A DNA stretch of 64,000 bases, from contig VRMN01000008.1 of assembly GCA_008690995.1 (NCBI GenBank), positions 434,001 to 498,000 on the forward strand, in the 5' to 3' direction. A program made the translations under genes and the position numbers. Position 1 is the stretch's first letter. Each line of letters begins with the position of its first letter. This stretch comes from Porphyridium purpureum (lineage: Eukaryota > Rhodophyta > Bangiophyceae > Porphyridiales > Porphyridiaceae). Below the pieces are notes generated by a model. The model saw only the letters and a program-made list of their open reading frames with translations. It ran no database searches and was not told the DNA's origin. Shown here piece after piece: positions 11,583-57,088 of this stretch.

Positions 11583-14090
11583 ATGGGGAAGGGCAAGGGG
11601 AATGTGGTGCTCACAAAAGATGCGAGTCGGAACGAGAAGCACGGGGACACGGCGGCCCCGGCGAAAAAGCGGTTGCCGTTCATGAGGCAGCGCTCGTCAA
11701 AGGTGGCCAGCACCGCGGGTGGGAGCTCGGCGCCCACATCTGCGCCGCCGTCGACGAATGCGACGTCAGGTAAGGATTCGGCGAGCAAAGCAAGTCCCGC
11801 GGCGGCGGCTTCAGTGCCGGACAACAGCAAGACCGCCGCGGCGTCTGCGCAGAATGCGGTAACGGCCGCAGCCGACACGCCGTCGGAGAAGGCGGGTGCG
11901 GCGGCGGCTGGAGCAGTTCCACAGGATCCGGAAACTGGCGGCCCGCGAAAGATCGGGCTGAAGCACATCGACTTTATCAACGTTCACCGCAAGAACTACA
12001 CGGGCAGAATCGAGCTTCTGCAAGGCTCGGTTGAATCATTGTCACCCGCTGATGAGACCGACTTGCTCATCGTTTACCTTCGCGAGCGTGGCGCACACAA
12101 GGCCAATCGCGACTCTGCATTGGCGGCGCTGAATCGGGGCGGCGTTTCGCTTGCGCAACTCGAGAAGGAGTCCAAACCCCAGCCGTCGTATCGCAGACAC
12201 TACCACTGCTGGCTCAGTCGGCAGATTCCGAAACCGCGTCCGGTAGGCTTTGAGTACAAGCGCCTACTTGTGTACGAGGATCCGGGCGAGGAGCTCACGC
12301 GCGACGACAACATTGTGCTTGACATCATGAAGTGCCTTACCACCGTGATTGGTGGTGATGTGCAAATTACCTCGGTCATGCTGCCGCTCTCTGGCGCTCT
12401 CTTGAGTGCATCCCTGCGAAAACACTTTGTCAAAGCGGCCGCCGAGGTATGCTTTGCGTGGATGACAATGGGTCTGCCGCTCCGCAACGTGCGCATTCTG
12501 CTGCCTGAGACCGATATCGGCAAGGATATTGTCGTATTCCAAGAGGTCAAGGAGAAGTTGCTGTCGCGCGGCCCCGAGATGTTTTTGGCCTCCACAAAGT
12601 ACGATGTCTTCTTCAGCTACGCCAAGGAGGATAAGGAGGCGGCGCATGAGATGATGAATTTTCTGCAGAGCAAGAACCCGGCGGTTCGCCTGTACGACGC
12701 GGAGCCGCGAGACATCAGCGTGCGCCAGCGCGGCGTGGTGCATGCACCTGTAATGGAAGCGATCAACCAGTCACGCGTGTTCCTGTCGCTGCTGTCTGAT
12801 GACTACTTCCACTCGGTCGAGTGCACAGAGGCGTTTTCGCTCGCATACTGCCGCGATTTCGACTCGCAAGGCAATTTCATTATTCCGCTCTTTTGGCGTA
12901 GCTGCGATTTGACACCGCTCGCCAGACGTCTGGTTGCAACCGAAGGTGTGGACTGTCGTGAGGCGTCGTTTGAGTCTGCCAAAGTTTTGCTAGAAGAAAT
13001 TCTGGCGGCGCTTGAGTCGCCCGCATCCCGAGATGGAACAGGCCTCGACGGAGACGAGGAAGGGCGGTCGCTGAACTCGGCCACGCGCGTGGATGAAGAC
13101 AAGGAGAAGATTAACATTGCGGAGAAGCTCATGATGATGAAGGACGAAAACGTCGAGCAGCAAGGCTTTGAGGTGCATGATATGCCTCAGGAAGAGGAAA
13201 CGGTAAGCCAAATCTTCTTTGACAAGGCGTGGCGCGACCAGTGGGCGATCGATTTCCGCACGCTTGTGTTTGGGCCACGCATTGGCGCGGGTGGTTTCGG
13301 TGAAGTTTACAAGGCGAAGTACAGGAACGAGATGGTGGCGGTCAAGACACTGCAAAAAGTGGACGACGACGATCAACAGGCGGTGATCGCCGAATTCATG
13401 GTGGAAATGAAACTCATGTCCAAGTTGAAACACCCGAACATTGTACCATTTTTGGGTGCTAGTGTGCAGCAGCCCAACCTGGCGATTGTCCTGGAATTCA
13501 TGCCGGGCGGCAGCTTGTACCGCGCGATTCACCGCAGGAGAAGGAATCATTTGGGGCCCTTCCCTCTGTTGAAGACCTTGTGGATTGCGTACGGTATTTC
13601 CAAGGGTATGGAGTACCTGCACTGCCAGTATCCGGTGATTATCCATCGCGATCTCAAGTCGCCGAATATTCTGCTGGGCTCGAACGTACACGAGGTGAAA
13701 CTAACTGACTTTGGCCTTTCGCGTCTGCGCGTCGCCACATACGTCAATACAGGACCGGGAGGCACACCCGAGTGGATGGCACCCGAATTGTTGCGGCAGG
13801 ATCCGTTTGATGAACGGTCCGACGTCTTTTCGTTCGGCGTCATCTTGTGGGAGCTCGTTGTGTGCGAAAAGCCCTGGCGAGACGACCACCCCATGCAAAT
13901 TGTGTTCAAGGTTGGCTCACGCGGCGAGAAACTGCAGGTACCGGCGGGTACGCAGTGTCCACCGGAACTCAAGGCAATGATTCTCGCGTGTTTCCAGGAA
14001 CAACCGACAAAGCGCCCGCGCTTCGGCGATCTGACCAAGCAGCTTGAGGTCATGGTGCAACAAGTGGAAGCAACGCGTAACAAGAAGTAG
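11583..14090 (+). CDS. TIR domain - TKL (Raf/MLK-like) protein kinase fusion
   Basis: 835 aa from the ATG at 11583 (MGKGKGNVVL); the open frame upstream has no supporting homology. Order: an Ala/Ser-rich basic tail (1-120); a globular region (about 123-330) resembling the domain that precedes TIR in some bacterial proteins (CWLSRQIP, ITSVMLPLSG, GLPLRNVRIL); a TIR domain (about 339-480) with KYDVFFSYAKED, SDDYFHSVECTEAF and NFIIPLFW, the middle block close to the SDDY..S.EC of animal MyD88; an acidic linker; and a kinase domain (about 558-830) with IGAGGFGEVYKAKY, VAVK (K588), HRDLKSPN (D690), DFG (D709), GTPEWMAPE and SDVFSFGVILWEL. All catalytic kinase residues are present. The kinase class is tyrosine-kinase-like Ser/Thr. 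Role is unknown: signalling, perhaps stress or immunity, is inference. Confidence 0.9.
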   Translation: MGKGKGNVVLTKDASRNEKHGDTAAPAKKRLPFMRQRSSKVASTAGGSSAPTSAPPSTNATSGKDSASKASPAAAASVPDNSKTAAASAQNAVTAAADTPSEKAGAAAAGAVPQDPETGGPRKIGLKHIDFINVHRKNYTGRIELLQGSVESLSPADETDLLIVYLRERGAHKANRDSALAALNRGGVSLAQLEKESKPQPSYRRHYHCWLSRQIPKPRPVGFEYKRLLVYEDPGEELTRDDNIVLDIMKCLTTVIGGDVQITSVMLPLSGALLSASLRKHFVKAAAEVCFAWMTMGLPLRNVRILLPETDIGKDIVVFQEVKEKLLSRGPEMFLASTKYDVFFSYAKEDKEAAHEMMNFLQSKNPAVRLYDAEPRDISVRQRGVVHAPVMEAINQSRVFLSLLSDDYFHSVECTEAFSLAYCRDFDSQGNFIIPLFWRSCDLTPLARRLVATEGVDCREASFESAKVLLEEILAALESPASRDGTGLDGDEEGRSLNSATRVDEDKEKINIAEKLMMMKDENVEQQGFEVHDMPQEEETVSQIFFDKAWRDQWAIDFRTLVFGPRIGAGGFGEVYKAKYRNEMVAVKTLQKVDDDDQQAVIAEFMVEMKLMSKLKHPNIVPFLGASVQQPNLAIVLEFMPGGSLYRAIHRRRRNHLGPFPLLKTLWIAYGISKGMEYLHCQYPVIIHRDLKSPNILLGSNVHEVKLTDFGLSRLRVATYVNTGPGGTPEWMAPELLRQDPFDERSDVFSFGVILWELVVCEKPWRDDHPMQIVFKVGSRGEKLQVPAGTQCPPELKAMILACFQEQPTKRPRFGDLTKQLEVMVQQVEATRNKK

Positions 14091-14650: not shown

Positions 14651-15481
14651 TTACTCTTTCGCAAACTGAATCTGCTTGAGCGTGTTGTGGACGCCTGTGC
14701 AGTAGATCGTTTTGCTGTGTCCGCAACGACAAATCATTACGCTCTTGTCCTCCTCTGCTTTCACCCTAATCGGCTCATATGAGGTGCCTCGCTCCTTGTT
14801 GACGTACGTGTGAAACCCGCCGCAGTATGGCTGCATATTACTGACGCCGCATGCGCAAAAGGAAACGACCTTGCCTTTCTTAAGGTCTTCTGCCCATGGT
14901 CCTTCGCCGTCATAGTCCACTGGCGGCTGACGTGCTGATTCTCGCGCATAGCAGGCACACTTTTTGGAAAAGTTTTCAGATCCTTCGCTGCAAACAAACC
15001 CGACATCAGGCTCGGTGAGCACCGCGCCAGCCGCAGCACGAGCGACCGCTTTTTGCTTCTTGACGGTCGAAATGAAAGCGCCCTTGGTGTCCGTACCCCC
15101 GCGGCGCACAGAATCTACCACACCAAGCCCTGAGCAGATGCTGCACTTCAGCACGCCCTTCCCCGAGCAAATAATGCACGTGCCAAGAGGGTCCGAACCC
15201 GACCCGCCGCAAGACTCGCACGTCATCTTTCCAGTTTCCTCACAAAATGGACACGGCTCCATTCCGGCCTTGTCCACACCTGGCGTGCGGATCACCCGCT
15301 TGATCAAATTCTCAAAAAAGCCGTTCTTCTCCGCACCCATCACCGTCACTGCGCGGCGCTCTACCTGGCCTCGATCACATCCAAACGCCCGTCCACCGCA
15401 AACGGCGCGCACGTCCACCGTCGCGACTTTTCCCCACGCACGTCGGCTGGGCCACGGCCCGCCACATACAAATCCCAACAT
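14651..15481 (-). CDS. DnaJ-type zinc finger fused to two CDGSH-like iron-sulfur motifs
   Basis: 276 aa. The N-terminal 50 residues are Arg/Ala/Val-rich and could be a plastid or mitochondrial targeting peptide. Residues 77-120 carry four C-x-x-C repeats (CPFCEETG, CESCGGSG, CIICSGKG, CSICSGLG) as in the DnaJ/BSD2 cysteine-rich domain. After a basic Ala-rich linker come two CDGSH-like motifs: CACGVSNMQPYCGGFH (209-224), which keeps the C-x-C-x2-S-x3-P-x-C-x2-x-H ligand spacing but has GGF in place of DGS, and CRCGHSKTIYCTGVH (251-265), which has all 3Cys+1His ligands but one residue fewer between Ser and the third Cys. CDGSH proteins bind redox-active 2Fe-2S clusters, so an organellar iron-sulfur or redox-chaperone role is plausible. 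I do not know this fusion from characterised proteins. Head to head with Sm D2. Confidence 0.82.
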   Translation of the reverse strand: MLGFVCGGPWPSRRAWGKVATVDVRAVCGGRAFGCDRGQVERRAVTVMGAEKNGFFENLIKRVIRTPGVDKAGMEPCPFCEETGKMTCESCGGSGSDPLGTCIICSGKGVLKCSICSGLGVVDSVRRGGTDTKGAFISTVKKQKAVARAAAGAVLTEPDVGFVCSEGSENFSKKCACYARESARQPPVDYDGEGPWAEDLKKGKVVSFCACGVSNMQPYCGGFHTYVNKERGTSYEPIRVKAEEDKSVMICRCGHSKTIYCTGVHNTLKQIQFAKE

Positions 15482-16025
15482 GGCCCAACCGCCCCACTTC
15501 GCGAATGACTCGGTGAGTCCGCGAAATCTCCTCGATCAATCCTTCCCGTGTCGGACGAGCTTCTCGGCGGACAAGTCCACGACTTCGACAAGCCACGCGT
15601 GCTAAGCACGACCGGATGAGACAGGCAAGCTACTCGAGATGCCTGTGTGTCCTTTCACGCCGAGCGACAGCGCCCACACAGGCCACGACAGCTCCGCACC
15701 CCAACCACCCCAACCACAAAAATCTCGCGCCGCCGCGCTCGTCTCGCGAACCCGAACAAAATTTACTCACCACAGGCCACTGTACATCAAGCACTGTACT
15801 TTCCGTGTTAAACAGAACAAAATTCATTCGACCAGTATTAATAAAATGGTTTAACTTATCGCATTTATTTATATTATCACTGTACTTGGGGGAGGAAGGT
15901 GAGGTACAGTATGTCGATGTACAAAGGGTTCAGTGGGTTTGGGTAAAAGAAGGGACAAGAGCGGGTCTCCCGGGGGAAGGACGACTGAGGTAAGTAGAGG
16001 TGGTGAGCTGGTTGGTGGCGGCGGC
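15482..16025. other. divergent promoter region CDGSH / Sm D2
   Basis: 544 bp. Contains four GTACAGT-type elements. Its central part (15830-15885) is AT-rich (tttatttatattat) but shows no canonical TATA box. Confidence 0.6.
15779..15910. promoter_or_regulatory. four GTACAGT/ACTGTAC elements
   Basis: ACTGTAC at 15779-15785, 15793-15799 and 15879-15885 and GTACAGT at 15904-15910. The last is 116 bases upstream of the Sm D2 ATG. Confidence 0.55.
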
Positions 16026-18758: not shown

Positions 18759-19667
18759 TCAGGCTCGGAGCGTTTGCGCCGCGATGCACCCATGAGGTTG
18801 CGTCGGCGCGCTTAATCTATCGCCCAACTGAGGGCAGTCGTAGTGTATGGTTGAAGTGCAGCAATCGCCTGTGGCAGTGCACGCGCACACTGCGTCAAAC
18901 TGCTGTTGCAAGTCGCGCAGCTTCACAGCATCCCACATGTACCCAGTATACAGGGCAAAGCACATATCGTGCTGCTGCCTCGTACGATCTGCACAACAAT
19001 CCTCGACCAGCGTGACACCGTAGCCTCGGCAGAAGGCGCCGTGGGCCGTATGCTGTACGCACGCAGAAGTCACCAAGCCGCACACCAAAACGTGGCTTAC
19101 ACCCATCTCCGTCAAGTACTCATGGAGTGCTGTATCGTGGAACGCGTCCCAAACAGGCTTGGCGATCACCATTTCGTTCGGCAGAGCTGCAGCAAACGGT
19201 TCCGGATTCTGGATGCCGTCCACGCGCGCCATCTTGTTCGGGTTCAGCGCAACAAACTGAGGTATCATGCGGCTTCGTGCTCCGTCATCATACACTGCCC
19301 GAATGTGCACAACAACGCAATCTGGGTCGCGGCGCGCCAACTCTAGCAGTCGTGCAATGTTGGGCGCAAATTCAGGAAACTCGCCACGAATCTGCGCGTT
19401 CAGACTCCAGTATTCTTGTTGCACGTCTACAACCAAGAGTGCGTGACGGCTACGCAGCGCCGGCAGCCGCGGGACCACTGGAACCAACCTGGGCGCCACA
19501 GAAGTTTCCGAAGCAGCTGCCATTGCCGATTCGGCTTGCGCGTCTTTGGCCAGGACTGTCGCCGGAGCCGCGGCTTCCGCTGAAACGCCGCGCTCAGGTT
19601 CGCTGGAAATGTGCTCCAACGAACAGTCTGGAATGAGCGCGCGCGCTAACGCTTCGTTCGGACTCAT
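18759..19667 (-). CDS. isochorismatase-fold cysteine hydrolase
   Basis: Cysteine hydrolase of the isochorismatase/nicotinamidase superfamily, 302 aa. The Asp-Lys-Cys triad is visible: D81 in LLVVDVQQEYW, K170 in MVIAKPVWDAF and C203 in GLVTSACVQHTA, with the cis-peptide-type GLVTSACV segment. The C-terminal helix region (GYGVTLVEDCCADRTRQQHD) is typical. The N-terminal 70 residues are Ala/Ser/Glu-rich and not part of the fold. Substrate unknown: the family includes nicotinamidases, ureidoacrylate amidohydrolases and isochorismatases, and the metal-binding residues of nicotinamidase are not clearly present. Tail to tail with MO25. Confidence 0.88.
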   Translation of the reverse strand: MSPNEALARALIPDCSLEHISSEPERGVSAEAAAPATVLAKDAQAESAMAAASETSVAPRLVPVVPRLPALRSRHALLVVDVQQEYWSLNAQIRGEFPEFAPNIARLLELARRDPDCVVVHIRAVYDDGARSRMIPQFVALNPNKMARVDGIQNPEPFAAALPNEMVIAKPVWDAFHDTALHEYLTEMGVSHVLVCGLVTSACVQHTAHGAFCRGYGVTLVEDCCADRTRQQHDMCFALYTGYMWDAVKLRDLQQQFDAVCACTATGDCCTSTIHYDCPQLGDRLSAPTQPHGCIAAQTLRA

Positions 19668-37118: not shown

Positions 37119-37247
37119 CGACGCGATGCCCGGCTGCGGTGGATCGGGTTGGAGCGAGCTGGTGGATCATAAGCGACAGAACGAAGGCGGAGTGGTGTGT
37201 GCAGGGAAGGAGAAGGAGGTGAGCGGTTGGATTGACTTGGAGTTGAA

Positions 37248-40223
37248 ATGGCGCCGATAGAGGGAATGCGAGTGCTGCGCGTGGATCACACGCTAGGGGA
37301 TGAGACCGTGACGGCGCATGGCGAGTCGCACCTCGGCGCGTTGGTGGTGGTCGACGCGCACGCTGGCGAGACGCCGTTGCCGTTGCAAAAGGTCGTGGTG
37401 CGTGCGTCCGTGACTGGCGCAGCATGCGAGACACATGTGACGCAGGTGTTCAGGAACGACGCTGCATCGCACATGAGTGCGACGCATTTGTTCCCTCTGC
37501 CCCTGGACGCAGCGGTCACACACATGGTGCTGAAAGCAGGCGATTTGGTGGTTCAGGCAGAGACACGCCCGAAACAGGCCGCGCAGGAAGAATTTGAGCA
37601 GGCAGAGCGCACGGGCCACCGCGCCGCGTTGATGAGCAAGGAGGACGGTTCGGACGTGCACCGTCTCCAGGTCACCAACCTGCCGCCCAACTGCGACGTC
37701 GAGGTGCAGTTTACTCTGGTCCAAATGCTCAAGTGCGTGGACGGAACGCTTCGCTGGCGCTTTCCAACGGTTGTGGCGCCCAGATACACGCCGAAGCATC
37801 AAAGCGACCACCAGCCAGAGCTACCGGTTGCCAGCGACGTGGACGGTGAAAAGCGCGGGCTCCCGGGGTTGCCCATTTGTGGGACCGCGACGGACGCTCC
37901 AGTCGCCGTCGAGTGGCCGCAGCCACCTCTGCGTCTGTCCGGGGGCACCAGATTGGACCTCGAACTCATTGTGCAGGGCGCCGTGAAAACGCTGACGTGT
38001 TCGCAACACGCAGTGAGCATGGAGCTGGGCGAGAACATCGTCAAAGTGCGCCCTGCTGGCATCGCAACGCTGAACAAGGATTTCGTTGTCTCGTTTAGCA
38101 CCGCCGCCAGCAAAGCGATTGCGACAAGCGCTTTCACCAATTCAGAATACTCGGCCGTGGTGGTGCAGGCACCCGCCAGCATGGTGGAGGCGAGCAAGCT
38201 CAGACTGCGCCGCCAGGCCGTGTTCATCATCGACATCTCCGGATCCATGGGCGGTTCAAAGATCGAGACATCCAAACGAGCTCTCGTCTCGGCGCTCCAC
38301 GCACTGGTTCCGGGGGACGAATTCAAGCTCATTGCCTTCGATAATCGACTCGAACTCTTTGAGCGTGGCCACCTGGTCGAATATACTGACGCCAACGTCA
38401 AACGGGCGGACGCATGGATCTCCAAGCTGGAGGCACGTGGCGGAACAGAGATGCTCCCCGCGCTCAAGGAGGGCTTCAACACATTTTCTAGCGGCGGGGC
38501 GATCTCACGCGCAGGAAGCATCGTGAGTGGCGTTGTGGCGTCGGTGATGCCAGGCGGCAGCAAGCCAGAGAAGAGCAATTTGCCTGCATTCCGCTCGCTG
38601 CTCTTTATCACTGACGGGCAGTCGTGGGATGAGGCTCGGCTCGTGCAAGAAGTGGCCGCGCTTCGCGACGCGAGCCGCGACGCCAATGGCACACCACCGA
38701 CTTTGTTCACGCTGGGCATCGACACGGCGGTGAATGAGTCGCTCCTGTCGCGCCTCGCTCGAATTGGAGGTGGTGTGTGTGAGCTGGCGACTCCGTCAGA
38801 CGATATTGAAGCGATTATCATGCGCATGGAGACCGACTTTGGCGGTTCAGTGCTGCAAAAGGTCGAGGTGGTTGGCTCCGGCCTGTCTCTGCCGTACGCT
38901 GCACTGCCAGGCACCAGCCCGGGCCTTTTTGTCTCAATGAATGCCATGGAACTGTACACGGGCCGTCCGCTGGTGTTCTTGCTGCGGGGCGGCGCTGGTC
39001 TTTCGCAAGTCACTGTTCGCGGCATCGACAAGAATGGCCAGCTCGTGGAATTGATGACACCCGTTGTGACAGTACAGCAAAGTGGCGCAGCGTCGACCGA
39101 GGCACTTTTCGAGCACGCGTCTGCGAATTATGGCGCGTTGTTCGCCAAGCAGCGCATTTTGTATTTGGAGGATGTGATGATGGTCCAGCCGGATCTGTCG
39201 CAGGCCGCCAAAGCTGAGATTGAACGTCTGGGTCTAGAGTTCAAGCTTGTCACCTCTGAGACCAGCAAAGTGGCAGTGGAGAAGAGCACTTCGGTGCGCG
39301 ATCAGAGCGCACCGCTTGTGCACGTGATGCAGCCGGTCGAGCTTCCAGAGTCGTGGGATCAGGGTTTCGTCGCCGGAGGGGTTTACGGCGCAGGACCAGC
39401 TCGCCGCAACAGGTCTGGTCTGCAAACGGATGCATTTATTTGTCTGTCAGGTGCATCTGTGCCGCCGGCCATGTGCATGGCTGCGCCACCACCACAGTGT
39501 GCTCCGGCAGGAGGTATGGCCACGGGCGAGCAATGCAAGCGTGCAGACGTGGGAATGCCTCCAGCCAAGAGCAAAAAGAAGGGCGGCTTTATCGGTGGCA
39601 GCGGATTTATGTCTAGCATGGGAGGGGCCGTCTTTGGTGCTCGTGCGGGTCGAATGTCGGCACCAAGGTACGAGGCTGCGAGAGCTGCAGCACCAGAGGG
39701 CGTCTGCTACGAGGCACCGGCGGAAGATGATTGTGAATTTGAAGCGGGCAACGCCTTGCTTGAGCAAGAGGAGGCCGCAGTGAAAGAATCTTGCTTCACA
39801 GACTCCAGCGAGGCTTCTGTCGAAGCAGCACCCAAGGCCAGGAAACGCCAGGAGAAATCTGCGCCTAAGAAGACGATGGCCGACGCCGCTGGAGAGCTCG
39901 CGCGTTTGCAGAGTGCCAACGGGTCCTTTGATAACAATAGCGTTGAAGCGACGTGCTTCGCAGTGCTGGCGCTGCTCTTGCTTGGTCACACGACGGCGAC
40001 TGGCATTCGCCAGCGAACTGTGCTGAAAGCTGTGACGTGGCTGTCGTCACAACCGTCGAATGCGCTGATCCAGCAGACGCTGCAGGCGCTGGAGCGCGTG
40101 GAAGACGGCGAGCCGAGCGTGTCTGTTTGCATGCCCGTCGCGCGCTCTGCGCTCGCGGCGTCTGCGCACAAGAGCGCGGCGGTCGAGGAAGTGCTCGCAT
40201 GCGTTGTCGCGCAGTGCGCGTAG
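37248..40223 (+). CDS. VIT + von Willebrand A domain protein (VWA5A-like)
   Basis: 991 aa. N-terminal VIT domain (about 20-165): VRASVTGAACETHVTQVFRN, ATHLFPLPLDAAVTHMVLKA, EFEQAERTGHRAALM, VTNLPPNCDVEVQFTLVQML. VWA domain (about 323-520): VFIIDISGSMGG carries the DxSxS metal site (D329), RGGTEMLPAL the MIDAS Thr, LLFITDGQ the following strand. A Gly/Pro/Cys/Met-rich linker comes next (about 710-850). The C-terminus (LARLQSANGSFDNNS ... CFAVLALLLLGH) resembles the end of VWA5A/PARP4-type proteins. No signal peptide is seen, so it is intracellular like VWA5A. Role not known; VIT-VWA proteins include vault-associated PARP4, but no PARP domain is present. The long frame has no introns. ATG 37248 is the first. 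Confidence 0.9.
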   Translation: MAPIEGMRVLRVDHTLGDETVTAHGESHLGALVVVDAHAGETPLPLQKVVVRASVTGAACETHVTQVFRNDAASHMSATHLFPLPLDAAVTHMVLKAGDLVVQAETRPKQAAQEEFEQAERTGHRAALMSKEDGSDVHRLQVTNLPPNCDVEVQFTLVQMLKCVDGTLRWRFPTVVAPRYTPKHQSDHQPELPVASDVDGEKRGLPGLPICGTATDAPVAVEWPQPPLRLSGGTRLDLELIVQGAVKTLTCSQHAVSMELGENIVKVRPAGIATLNKDFVVSFSTAASKAIATSAFTNSEYSAVVVQAPASMVEASKLRLRRQAVFIIDISGSMGGSKIETSKRALVSALHALVPGDEFKLIAFDNRLELFERGHLVEYTDANVKRADAWISKLEARGGTEMLPALKEGFNTFSSGGAISRAGSIVSGVVASVMPGGSKPEKSNLPAFRSLLFITDGQSWDEARLVQEVAALRDASRDANGTPPTLFTLGIDTAVNESLLSRLARIGGGVCELATPSDDIEAIIMRMETDFGGSVLQKVEVVGSGLSLPYAALPGTSPGLFVSMNAMELYTGRPLVFLLRGGAGLSQVTVRGIDKNGQLVELMTPVVTVQQSGAASTEALFEHASANYGALFAKQRILYLEDVMMVQPDLSQAAKAEIERLGLEFKLVTSETSKVAVEKSTSVRDQSAPLVHVMQPVELPESWDQGFVAGGVYGAGPARRNRSGLQTDAFICLSGASVPPAMCMAAPPPQCAPAGGMATGEQCKRADVGMPPAKSKKKGGFIGGSGFMSSMGGAVFGARAGRMSAPRYEAARAAAPEGVCYEAPAEDDCEFEAGNALLEQEEAAVKESCFTDSSEASVEAAPKARKRQEKSAPKKTMADAAGELARLQSANGSFDNNSVEATCFAVLALLLLGHTTATGIRQRTVLKAVTWLSSQPSNALIQQTLQALERVEDGEPSVSVCMPVARSALAASAHKSAAVEEVLACVVAQCA

Positions 40224-56815: not shown

Positions 56816-57088
56816 ATGACGATTGTCACCGTGCGCTCTGGTGCGGCTTGTTACTCTCTCTCCAGGTCACGACCGACGCCGAACGGAGAGACCACGGTTC
56901 CAAAAAAAAGAGTGGGAAAGAAAGACAAAAGAAAATACCTGCGCCACCCGGAATTCCCGAGTGATCCCTCACCTCAGTACTACCCGGGCGCTAGCGGACT
57001 TAGCTTCCCTGTGCGAGATGGGAAGGGGCGCATGTCCAGCTGCTATGAGCGCAGGTTGAAAGGTGGGGGAAAATTAAATATTATATAG
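56816..57088 (+). CDS. possible small basic protein
   Basis: 90 aa from ATG 56816: a Ser/Arg-rich N-terminus, a Lys/Arg-rich middle (VPKKRVGKKDKRKYLRH), then SPQYYPGASGLSFPVRDGKG, MSSCYERRLKGGG. Not recognised. A very good splice acceptor (ttactctctctccag) ends at 56865, so the second two thirds could instead be the final exon of an unseen gene in the same frame. No donor or first exon found upstream. Confidence 0.35.
   Translation: MTIVTVRSGAACYSLSRSRPTPNGETTVPKKRVGKKDKRKYLRHPEFPSDPSPQYYPGASGLSFPVRDGKGRMSSCYERRLKGGGKLNII

Follow-up and report, generated by a model that had tools for sequence, protein, structure and literature searches.

In animals, TIR signals reach kinases via adaptors, and many plant and bacterial TIRs are NADases. 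The animal relay is divided between two separate proteins, MyD88 and IRAK, which are joined by death domains; IRAK belongs to the TKL kinases. TIR and kinase have also been predicted within one protein. In the red alga Pyropia yezoensis, two transcripts, py01330.t1 and py08661.t1, are recorded as TIR+Pkinase (Tang et al. 2019, Table 1, PMC6928737). During infection by the oomycete Pythium the former was up 1.51- and 1.59-fold, and the latter, with values of 1 and 1.27, was not marked as changed (PMC6928737). A survey of plant R genes likewise names TIR-Pkinase among its classes (PMC4234491). Another red alga, Chondrus crispus, has a TIR-NBARC-WD40 protein, in which NB-ARC and WD40 stand in place of a kinase (PMC9806590), and in Thoeris systems with a TM-macro ThsA the macro and TIR functions are linked by NAD-derived signals (PMC11204291).

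Here we describe a protein of the red alga Porphyridium purpureum, encoded in a stretch of 64,000 nucleotides that was analysed as a whole (the window), in which an N-terminal domain (N-domain), a TIR domain and a protein kinase follow one another in one open frame. Compared by printed domain names, it resembles the Pyropia proteins in having TIR and protein kinase in one predicted protein, and it resembles animal MyD88 and IRAK in placing a TIR upstream of a TKL-type kinase. It is unlike Thoeris, where macro domain and TIR enzyme are found in separate proteins, and its own N-domain is macro-like only as a candidate. The initial annotation of this DNA called TIR-kinase fusions unusual, which is fair, although the combination has been published for a red alga (PMC6928737) and as a plant R-gene class (PMC4234491). 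Among the matches listed in the open-licence literature, we found no protein combining this N-domain with TIR and kinase, and no loss of the catalytic Glu in a TIR-kinase. The protein thus appears to be a variant of a thinly described TIR+kinase kind, notable for a co-linear bacterial relative and an apparent loss of NADase chemistry.

Results

The gene occupies positions 11583 to 14090 of the plus strand as one uninterrupted frame including the stop, from an ATG at 11583 to a stop codon at 14088-14090, and encodes 835 amino acids (aa) with no internal stops. The frame is open upstream as far as 11457, and the ATG at 11583 is the first within it. Read from DNA alone, this single frame spans all of the domains, in agreement with the one exon initially proposed. 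Codon log-odds were calculated in sliding 300-base segments with three window frames (HSP70, clathrin heavy chain and Mo25) as the reference. In the gene frame, 16 of the 17 segments scored above zero and only the last, which extends beyond the stop, did not; both other plus-strand frames were below zero in 17 of 17, and the sequence 5' of the ATG scored -0.36 per codon. Reverse frames gave slightly positive values in 5 cases out of 51, and in the first segment a reverse frame reached 0.16 against 0.15 for the gene frame, so the Ala/Ser/Pro-rich low-complexity tail lying there (aa 1-123; 11583-11951, plus strand), which is without family match, is the least certain part of the gene. Within the 64-kb window, tblastn (E ≤ 1) found no second copy of the gene.

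The C-terminal kinase (aa 563-821; 13269-14045, plus strand) matches Pfam PK_Tyr_Ser-Thr with an E-value of 1.6e-59 and retains its Gly-rich loop, the VAVK lysine (K588), HRD (D690), DFG (709-711) and APE motifs, from which it is predicted to be active. Among the best 60 of 306 PDB matches, the closest solved kinase domain is that of plant CTR1 (240 bits), followed by a chain labelled EGFR (174 bits), MLK4 (168 bits), MAP3K9 and MAP3K12, and then by ABL and RAF (RAF1 about 145 bits). By similarity, then, we assign the domain to the plant-type Raf-like (CTR1) TKL kinases, and the description of it as a complete kinase of the Raf/MLK class holds good. To our knowledge, CTR1 itself has no TIR. 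Kinase matches were also obtained in phage records, and these reflect general kinase similarity. An acidic linker (aa 481-562; 13023-13268, plus strand) connects the kinase to the TIR domain and has no family match (13023-13260 searched).

The N-domain (aa 124-335, about 210 residues; 11952-12587, plus strand) was initially described as bacterial-looking, with a profile search of residues 123-330 as the suggested check. Such searches were empty: aa 121-340 matched nothing in Pfam, PADLOC, NCBIfam or PDB, and tblastn and scans with the window sequence gave no usable relative of the domain. A bacterial relative was found by another route, using as bait a consensus of our own for a bacterial family. 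The bait matched 22 of 396 genomes (E ≤ 0.01), and of the nine matches looked at, one (L099) was the family sought and eight were macro-type proteins, a single one of which (L100) was tested with Pfam. L099 is a frameshifted gene in which the C-terminal piece of the family leads into the opening of a TIR (YDVYISYAHAD); this C-terminal piece, used as a query, matched 2 of 299 genomes, its own and that of L122 (G441). L122 is an intact bacterial frame of 462 aa composed of N-domain and TIR. The genomes of L099 and L122 are actinobacterial by sampling route, being of the phylum of G001, the genome of the Streptomyces locus L005. The front domain therefore does precede a TIR in bacteria, intact in L122 and frameshifted in L099.

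L122 is co-linear with aa 124-477 of the window protein, at 110 bits without composition correction (93/357 identical, 26%; 164/357 positive), and the N-domains alone give 63.9 bits with composition correction (51/183 identical). The two N-domains score 139 against each other, as compared to a mean of 30.3 (sd 4.8, maximum 56) over 500 shuffles, and the two TIR domains 147 (500 shuffles: mean 27.9, sd 4.8, maximum 62); cross-domain controls scored 25 and 23. Since the co-linearity covers both domains, the N-domain and TIR are an old inherited unit, and this homology places the window protein within a module that it shares with L122. L122 differs from the window protein in having no kinase in its 462-aa frame, a Glu in the catalytic column, and an overlap with the frame upstream: L122 (1027-2055) and its neighbor (L122:2-1027) share the bases ATGA. 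The neighbor's product matches the PADLOC candidate PDC-S11 weakly (1.7e-9) and nothing in Pfam over the cut-off. On the strength of the overlap and the weak PDC-S11 match, the two genes may constitute an undescribed defence operon. A second PADLOC candidate, PDC-S66, matches both the window (12552-13022; 9.2e-5) and L122:1027-2055 (1.9e-10); with seemingly about 130 positions ahead of its TIR part, this profile may represent a related arrangement.

All of the bacterial genomes searched for the module were drawn from one phylum, and within these the unit seems to be rare. Queried with the L122 N-domain, 396 genomes gave one true match, in its own genome G441; two others (L124 and L125), which we take to be RsmI methyltransferases, are chance matches. 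Among 18 genomes of its order G441 was again the only match, and the broken copy in G252 did not score. Zero matches were found at E ≤ 1e-4 in 394 genomes of the class of G001, where an empty result is uninformative. Phages and viral contigs contained no match to the L122 N-domain, and whole L122 matched two plasmid records, both over the TIR part only. The window N-domain and TIR together had two weak matches in 296 genomes, L070 and L071, of which L071 is a TIR; L070 is not a TIR, reads to us like a short-chain dehydrogenase, and was removed from the column counts below. With the L122 N-domain, RecA and allophycocyanin were also matched, which we discarded as chance (7.7-bit pieces summed over repeats, or E 0.48). 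Two PHROGs matches obtained with the N-domain of the window protein (E 0.0088 and 0.26) were set aside, being short and absent from L122.

The fold of the N-domain may be macro-like, and we treat this as a lead rather than as membership. When the N-domains of the window protein and L122 were combined into a profile, hhalign aligned it over 54 columns with a profile of the eight macro-type proteins, themselves bait catches, at a probability of 13% and an E-value of 0.0021, which is below significance; the match sits at the equivalent C-terminal part of the N-domain, and the control alignment with TIRs had a probability of 0.2%. In the PDB, the L122 N-domain matched the macro protein DR_2288 at E 0.061, and the two-sequence profile of window and L122 found no macro chain. 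The Pfam Macro model matched neither the window nor the L122 N-domain, although that library does detect PF01661 in L100 (2.2e-43). Two stretches of L122, GDLT and STGD, resemble macro ligand loops; the window protein has GSVE and GALL in their place. A single-sequence AF2 model of the N-domain was too poor (pLDDT 43.7) for its Foldseek list to be informative.

The TIR domain spans aa 339-480 (12597-13022, plus strand), where it had been placed initially, and a profile search does find it there: Pfam TIR_2 (PF13676) matches aa 342-460 with an E-value of 1.1e-10 (5.2e-12 for the excised domain), and PF01582 reaches its cut-off with the excised domain only. Our own bacterial TIR HMM, the set for which still included the non-TIR L070, gave 45.9 bits. 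An AF2 model built from an alignment (A4) of 12 bacterial rows, visibly shifted in one helix, was weak (pLDDT 50, pTM 0.50). Foldseek of this low-confidence model returned the RPS4/RRS1 TIR first (E 4.3e-4), then L7, RPS4, TcpB/BtpA and TLR10, with two of the top-ranked hits at E ≤ 0.001. Among 36 bacterial rows the TIR of L122 is nearest to that of the window protein (raw score 147, the next being 91); lower scores mean little, because the non-TIR row L070 reached 79.

The likeness of this TIR to animal MyD88, on which the initial annotation had remarked, holds for a short block, SDDYFHSVEC, the counterpart of which in MyD88 is sddylqskec; the whole domain is closest to L122, and in the PDB plant TIRs rank ahead of MyD88 (0.0023 versus 0.03). 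It also scores higher with L122 than with the PDB chains of MyD88, the two scores being of different kinds and the comparison therefore a rough one. The order is reversed for the TIR of L122, for which TIRAP and MyD88 (2.5e-5 and 3.4e-5) precede plant TIRs (6.6e-4), and so part of the resemblance to adaptors may be a trait of the module family as a whole.

The block SDDYFHSVECTEAFSL (aa 405-420; 12795-12842, plus strand) contains the column of the TIR catalytic Glu, which in the rows compared we take to be the one in the C-x-x-E / x-E-W column of helix C. TIR NADases require a conserved Glu, as in SARM1 (E642) and RUN1 (E100) (PMC7282519). In a hand-picked subset of 35 bacterial rows, aligned in three MAFFT modes, the column holds E in 32, Q in 2 and a gap or N in 1; in a wider set of 89, L122 included, it holds E in 85, Q in 2 and a gap in 2. 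In both, the window protein has alanine, A417. The wider set leaves out L070, L087 (stop inside), L067-L069 (too short for the column), L002 and L072-L075 (places already represented by other rows), L121 and L123 (the genes of L099 and L122 over again) and L099 itself (falls short of the column); it counts two places twice (L005/L049 and L018/L054) and takes 43 rows from one close-knit set. An hmmsearch alignment likewise puts Ala in the column, but derives from the same bacterial set and so is not independent.

The initial annotation had nominated the Glu of ECTEAF as catalytic; this residue, E416, immediately precedes the column (E416 and A417, 12828-12833, plus strand). In the ungapped alignment with L122, CTEA of the window protein lies opposite CQEE, and E416 pairs with the other Glu of L122; because L122 has a Glu both in the column and at the position of E416, E416 corresponds to the non-conserved residue. 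A phmmer alignment to plant RPV1, however, places a gap exactly at E416/A417, so that a one-residue re-registration of the helix, making E416 serve, is conceivable. MyD88 also lacks the Glu, having Q opposite the E of L122. The structure prediction that had been recommended for locating the Glu yielded the weak model described above, and it was by alignment that the column was placed at A417. We conclude that the Glu expected of an NAD-cleaving TIR has apparently been lost, and the suggested coupling of NAD cleavage to phosphorylation is not supported, since Ala417 occupies its column.

Discussion

The architecture observed here is confirmed: N-domain, TIR and kinase in one frame. As to how such a protein might work, the TIR most likely has no enzymatic role and serves to assemble or sense, thereby driving the kinase; this would resemble MyD88 and IRAK combined in a single chain, though with a separate origin. 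The TIR would not cut NAD and would act in assembly or nucleotide sensing. After a trigger perhaps sensed via the N-domain, TIR-TIR contacts would cluster chains, permitting the kinase domains to trans-phosphorylate, and the clustered kinases would start a MAPKKK-like cascade; MyD88-plus-IRAK logic would thus have been arrived at separately, within one polypeptide. We give about even chances to the full proposition that the protein is a single-chain, immune-type signalling protein made of module and kinase, in which TIR-driven clustering starts such a cascade. In Pyropia, Pythium infection induces one TIR+Pkinase gene out of two, which suggests a role in defence. If correct, a bacterial-type TIR wired directly to a plant-type MAPKKK, its enzyme residue exchanged, would illustrate how an enzyme TIR becomes a pure signalling adaptor.

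One could further envision that the alga captured a bacterial defence module, consisting of a macro-like sensor and a TIR, that the NADase residue was lost and a Raf-like kinase gained, and that a one-chain pathogen sensor resulted. We offer this history tentatively, and are rather more inclined to doubt than to accept it. Under such circumstances the output would be phosphorylation and not NAD signalling, and the animal relay from TIR adaptor to kinase would have been independently reinvented.

Alternatively, the Glu-less TIR, the macro-like N-domain, or both could bind an ADP-ribose-type signal released by another TIR protein and so turn the kinase on, much as the macro domain of ThsA responds to what ThsB makes. 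We regard this as unlikely, as macro membership is below significance (hhalign 13%; DR_2288 at E 0.061; the two-sequence profile matching no macro chain) and the window protein departs from L122 in the stretches resembling ligand loops, but there is the weak macro-like match itself to consider, and precedent for both halves of the idea: macro domains of Thoeris ThsA bind ADPR/IAD and oligomerise (PMC11204291), and inactive TIR-class domains are described as nucleotide-binding sensors (PMC9503650).

An active NADase relying on E416, with NAD cleavage and phosphorylation coupled in one chain, is an improbable reading of the TIR. The distance of one residue from the column and the gap opposite RPV1 would accommodate such an enzyme; however, the ungapped L122 alignment gives Ala in the column, as does every MAFFT run with the bacterial sets, and of the two Glu residues of L122 it is the non-conserved one that E416 matches. 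There is likewise only a slight chance that the protein is a Raf-like kinase serving stress responses or development in general, for which the TIR module would serve as a dimerisation part and would have no immune role. CTR1 acts in plant hormone signalling, and the one Pyropia gene of the two that was induced was induced weakly, both of which would be compatible with such a kinase; against it is the bacterial N-domain+TIR gene's overlap with a neighbor that matches PDC-S11, weakly, at 1.7e-9. Finally, a mis-joined or chimeric gene, conceivable inasmuch as the gene is known here from DNA alone, is scarcely credible given one open frame with coding signal across all three domains, a TIR+kinase pairing reported in Pyropia (PMC6928737), and an order of N-domain and TIR that is conserved in bacteria. 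Because Porphyridium is transformable (PMC10866757), the proposed change of an enzyme TIR into an adaptor would be directly testable in the host.

Genomic context

The window carries eukaryotic housekeeping genes, several of them as single long frames, including those for HSP70, clathrin heavy chain, Mo25, a GET4-like protein, a DEAD-box helicase and Nop53. Its GC content is 56.6%; for Porphyridium, a GC content of 55.5% and only 235 spliceosomal introns are given (PMC10866757), and the window looks to come from a genome of this GC-rich, intron-poor kind. Adjoining the TIR-kinase gene, the minus-strand frame 14654-15535 has a zf-CDGSH (CDGSH iron-sulfur) match and, earlier in the frame, CPFCEETGKMTCESCGGSG, an odd pairing. 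CPFCEETGKMTCESCGGSG resembles a zinc finger of the DnaJ type. Farther along are a protein with an Isochorismatase domain (18762-19667, minus strand) and a VIT + VWA protein of the inter-alpha-trypsin type (37236-40220, plus strand), the latter in an intron-poor, protist-like genome. The sole Rfam match above its gathering score within the window is a 5S rRNA gene (56936-57056, minus strand; 100 bits).
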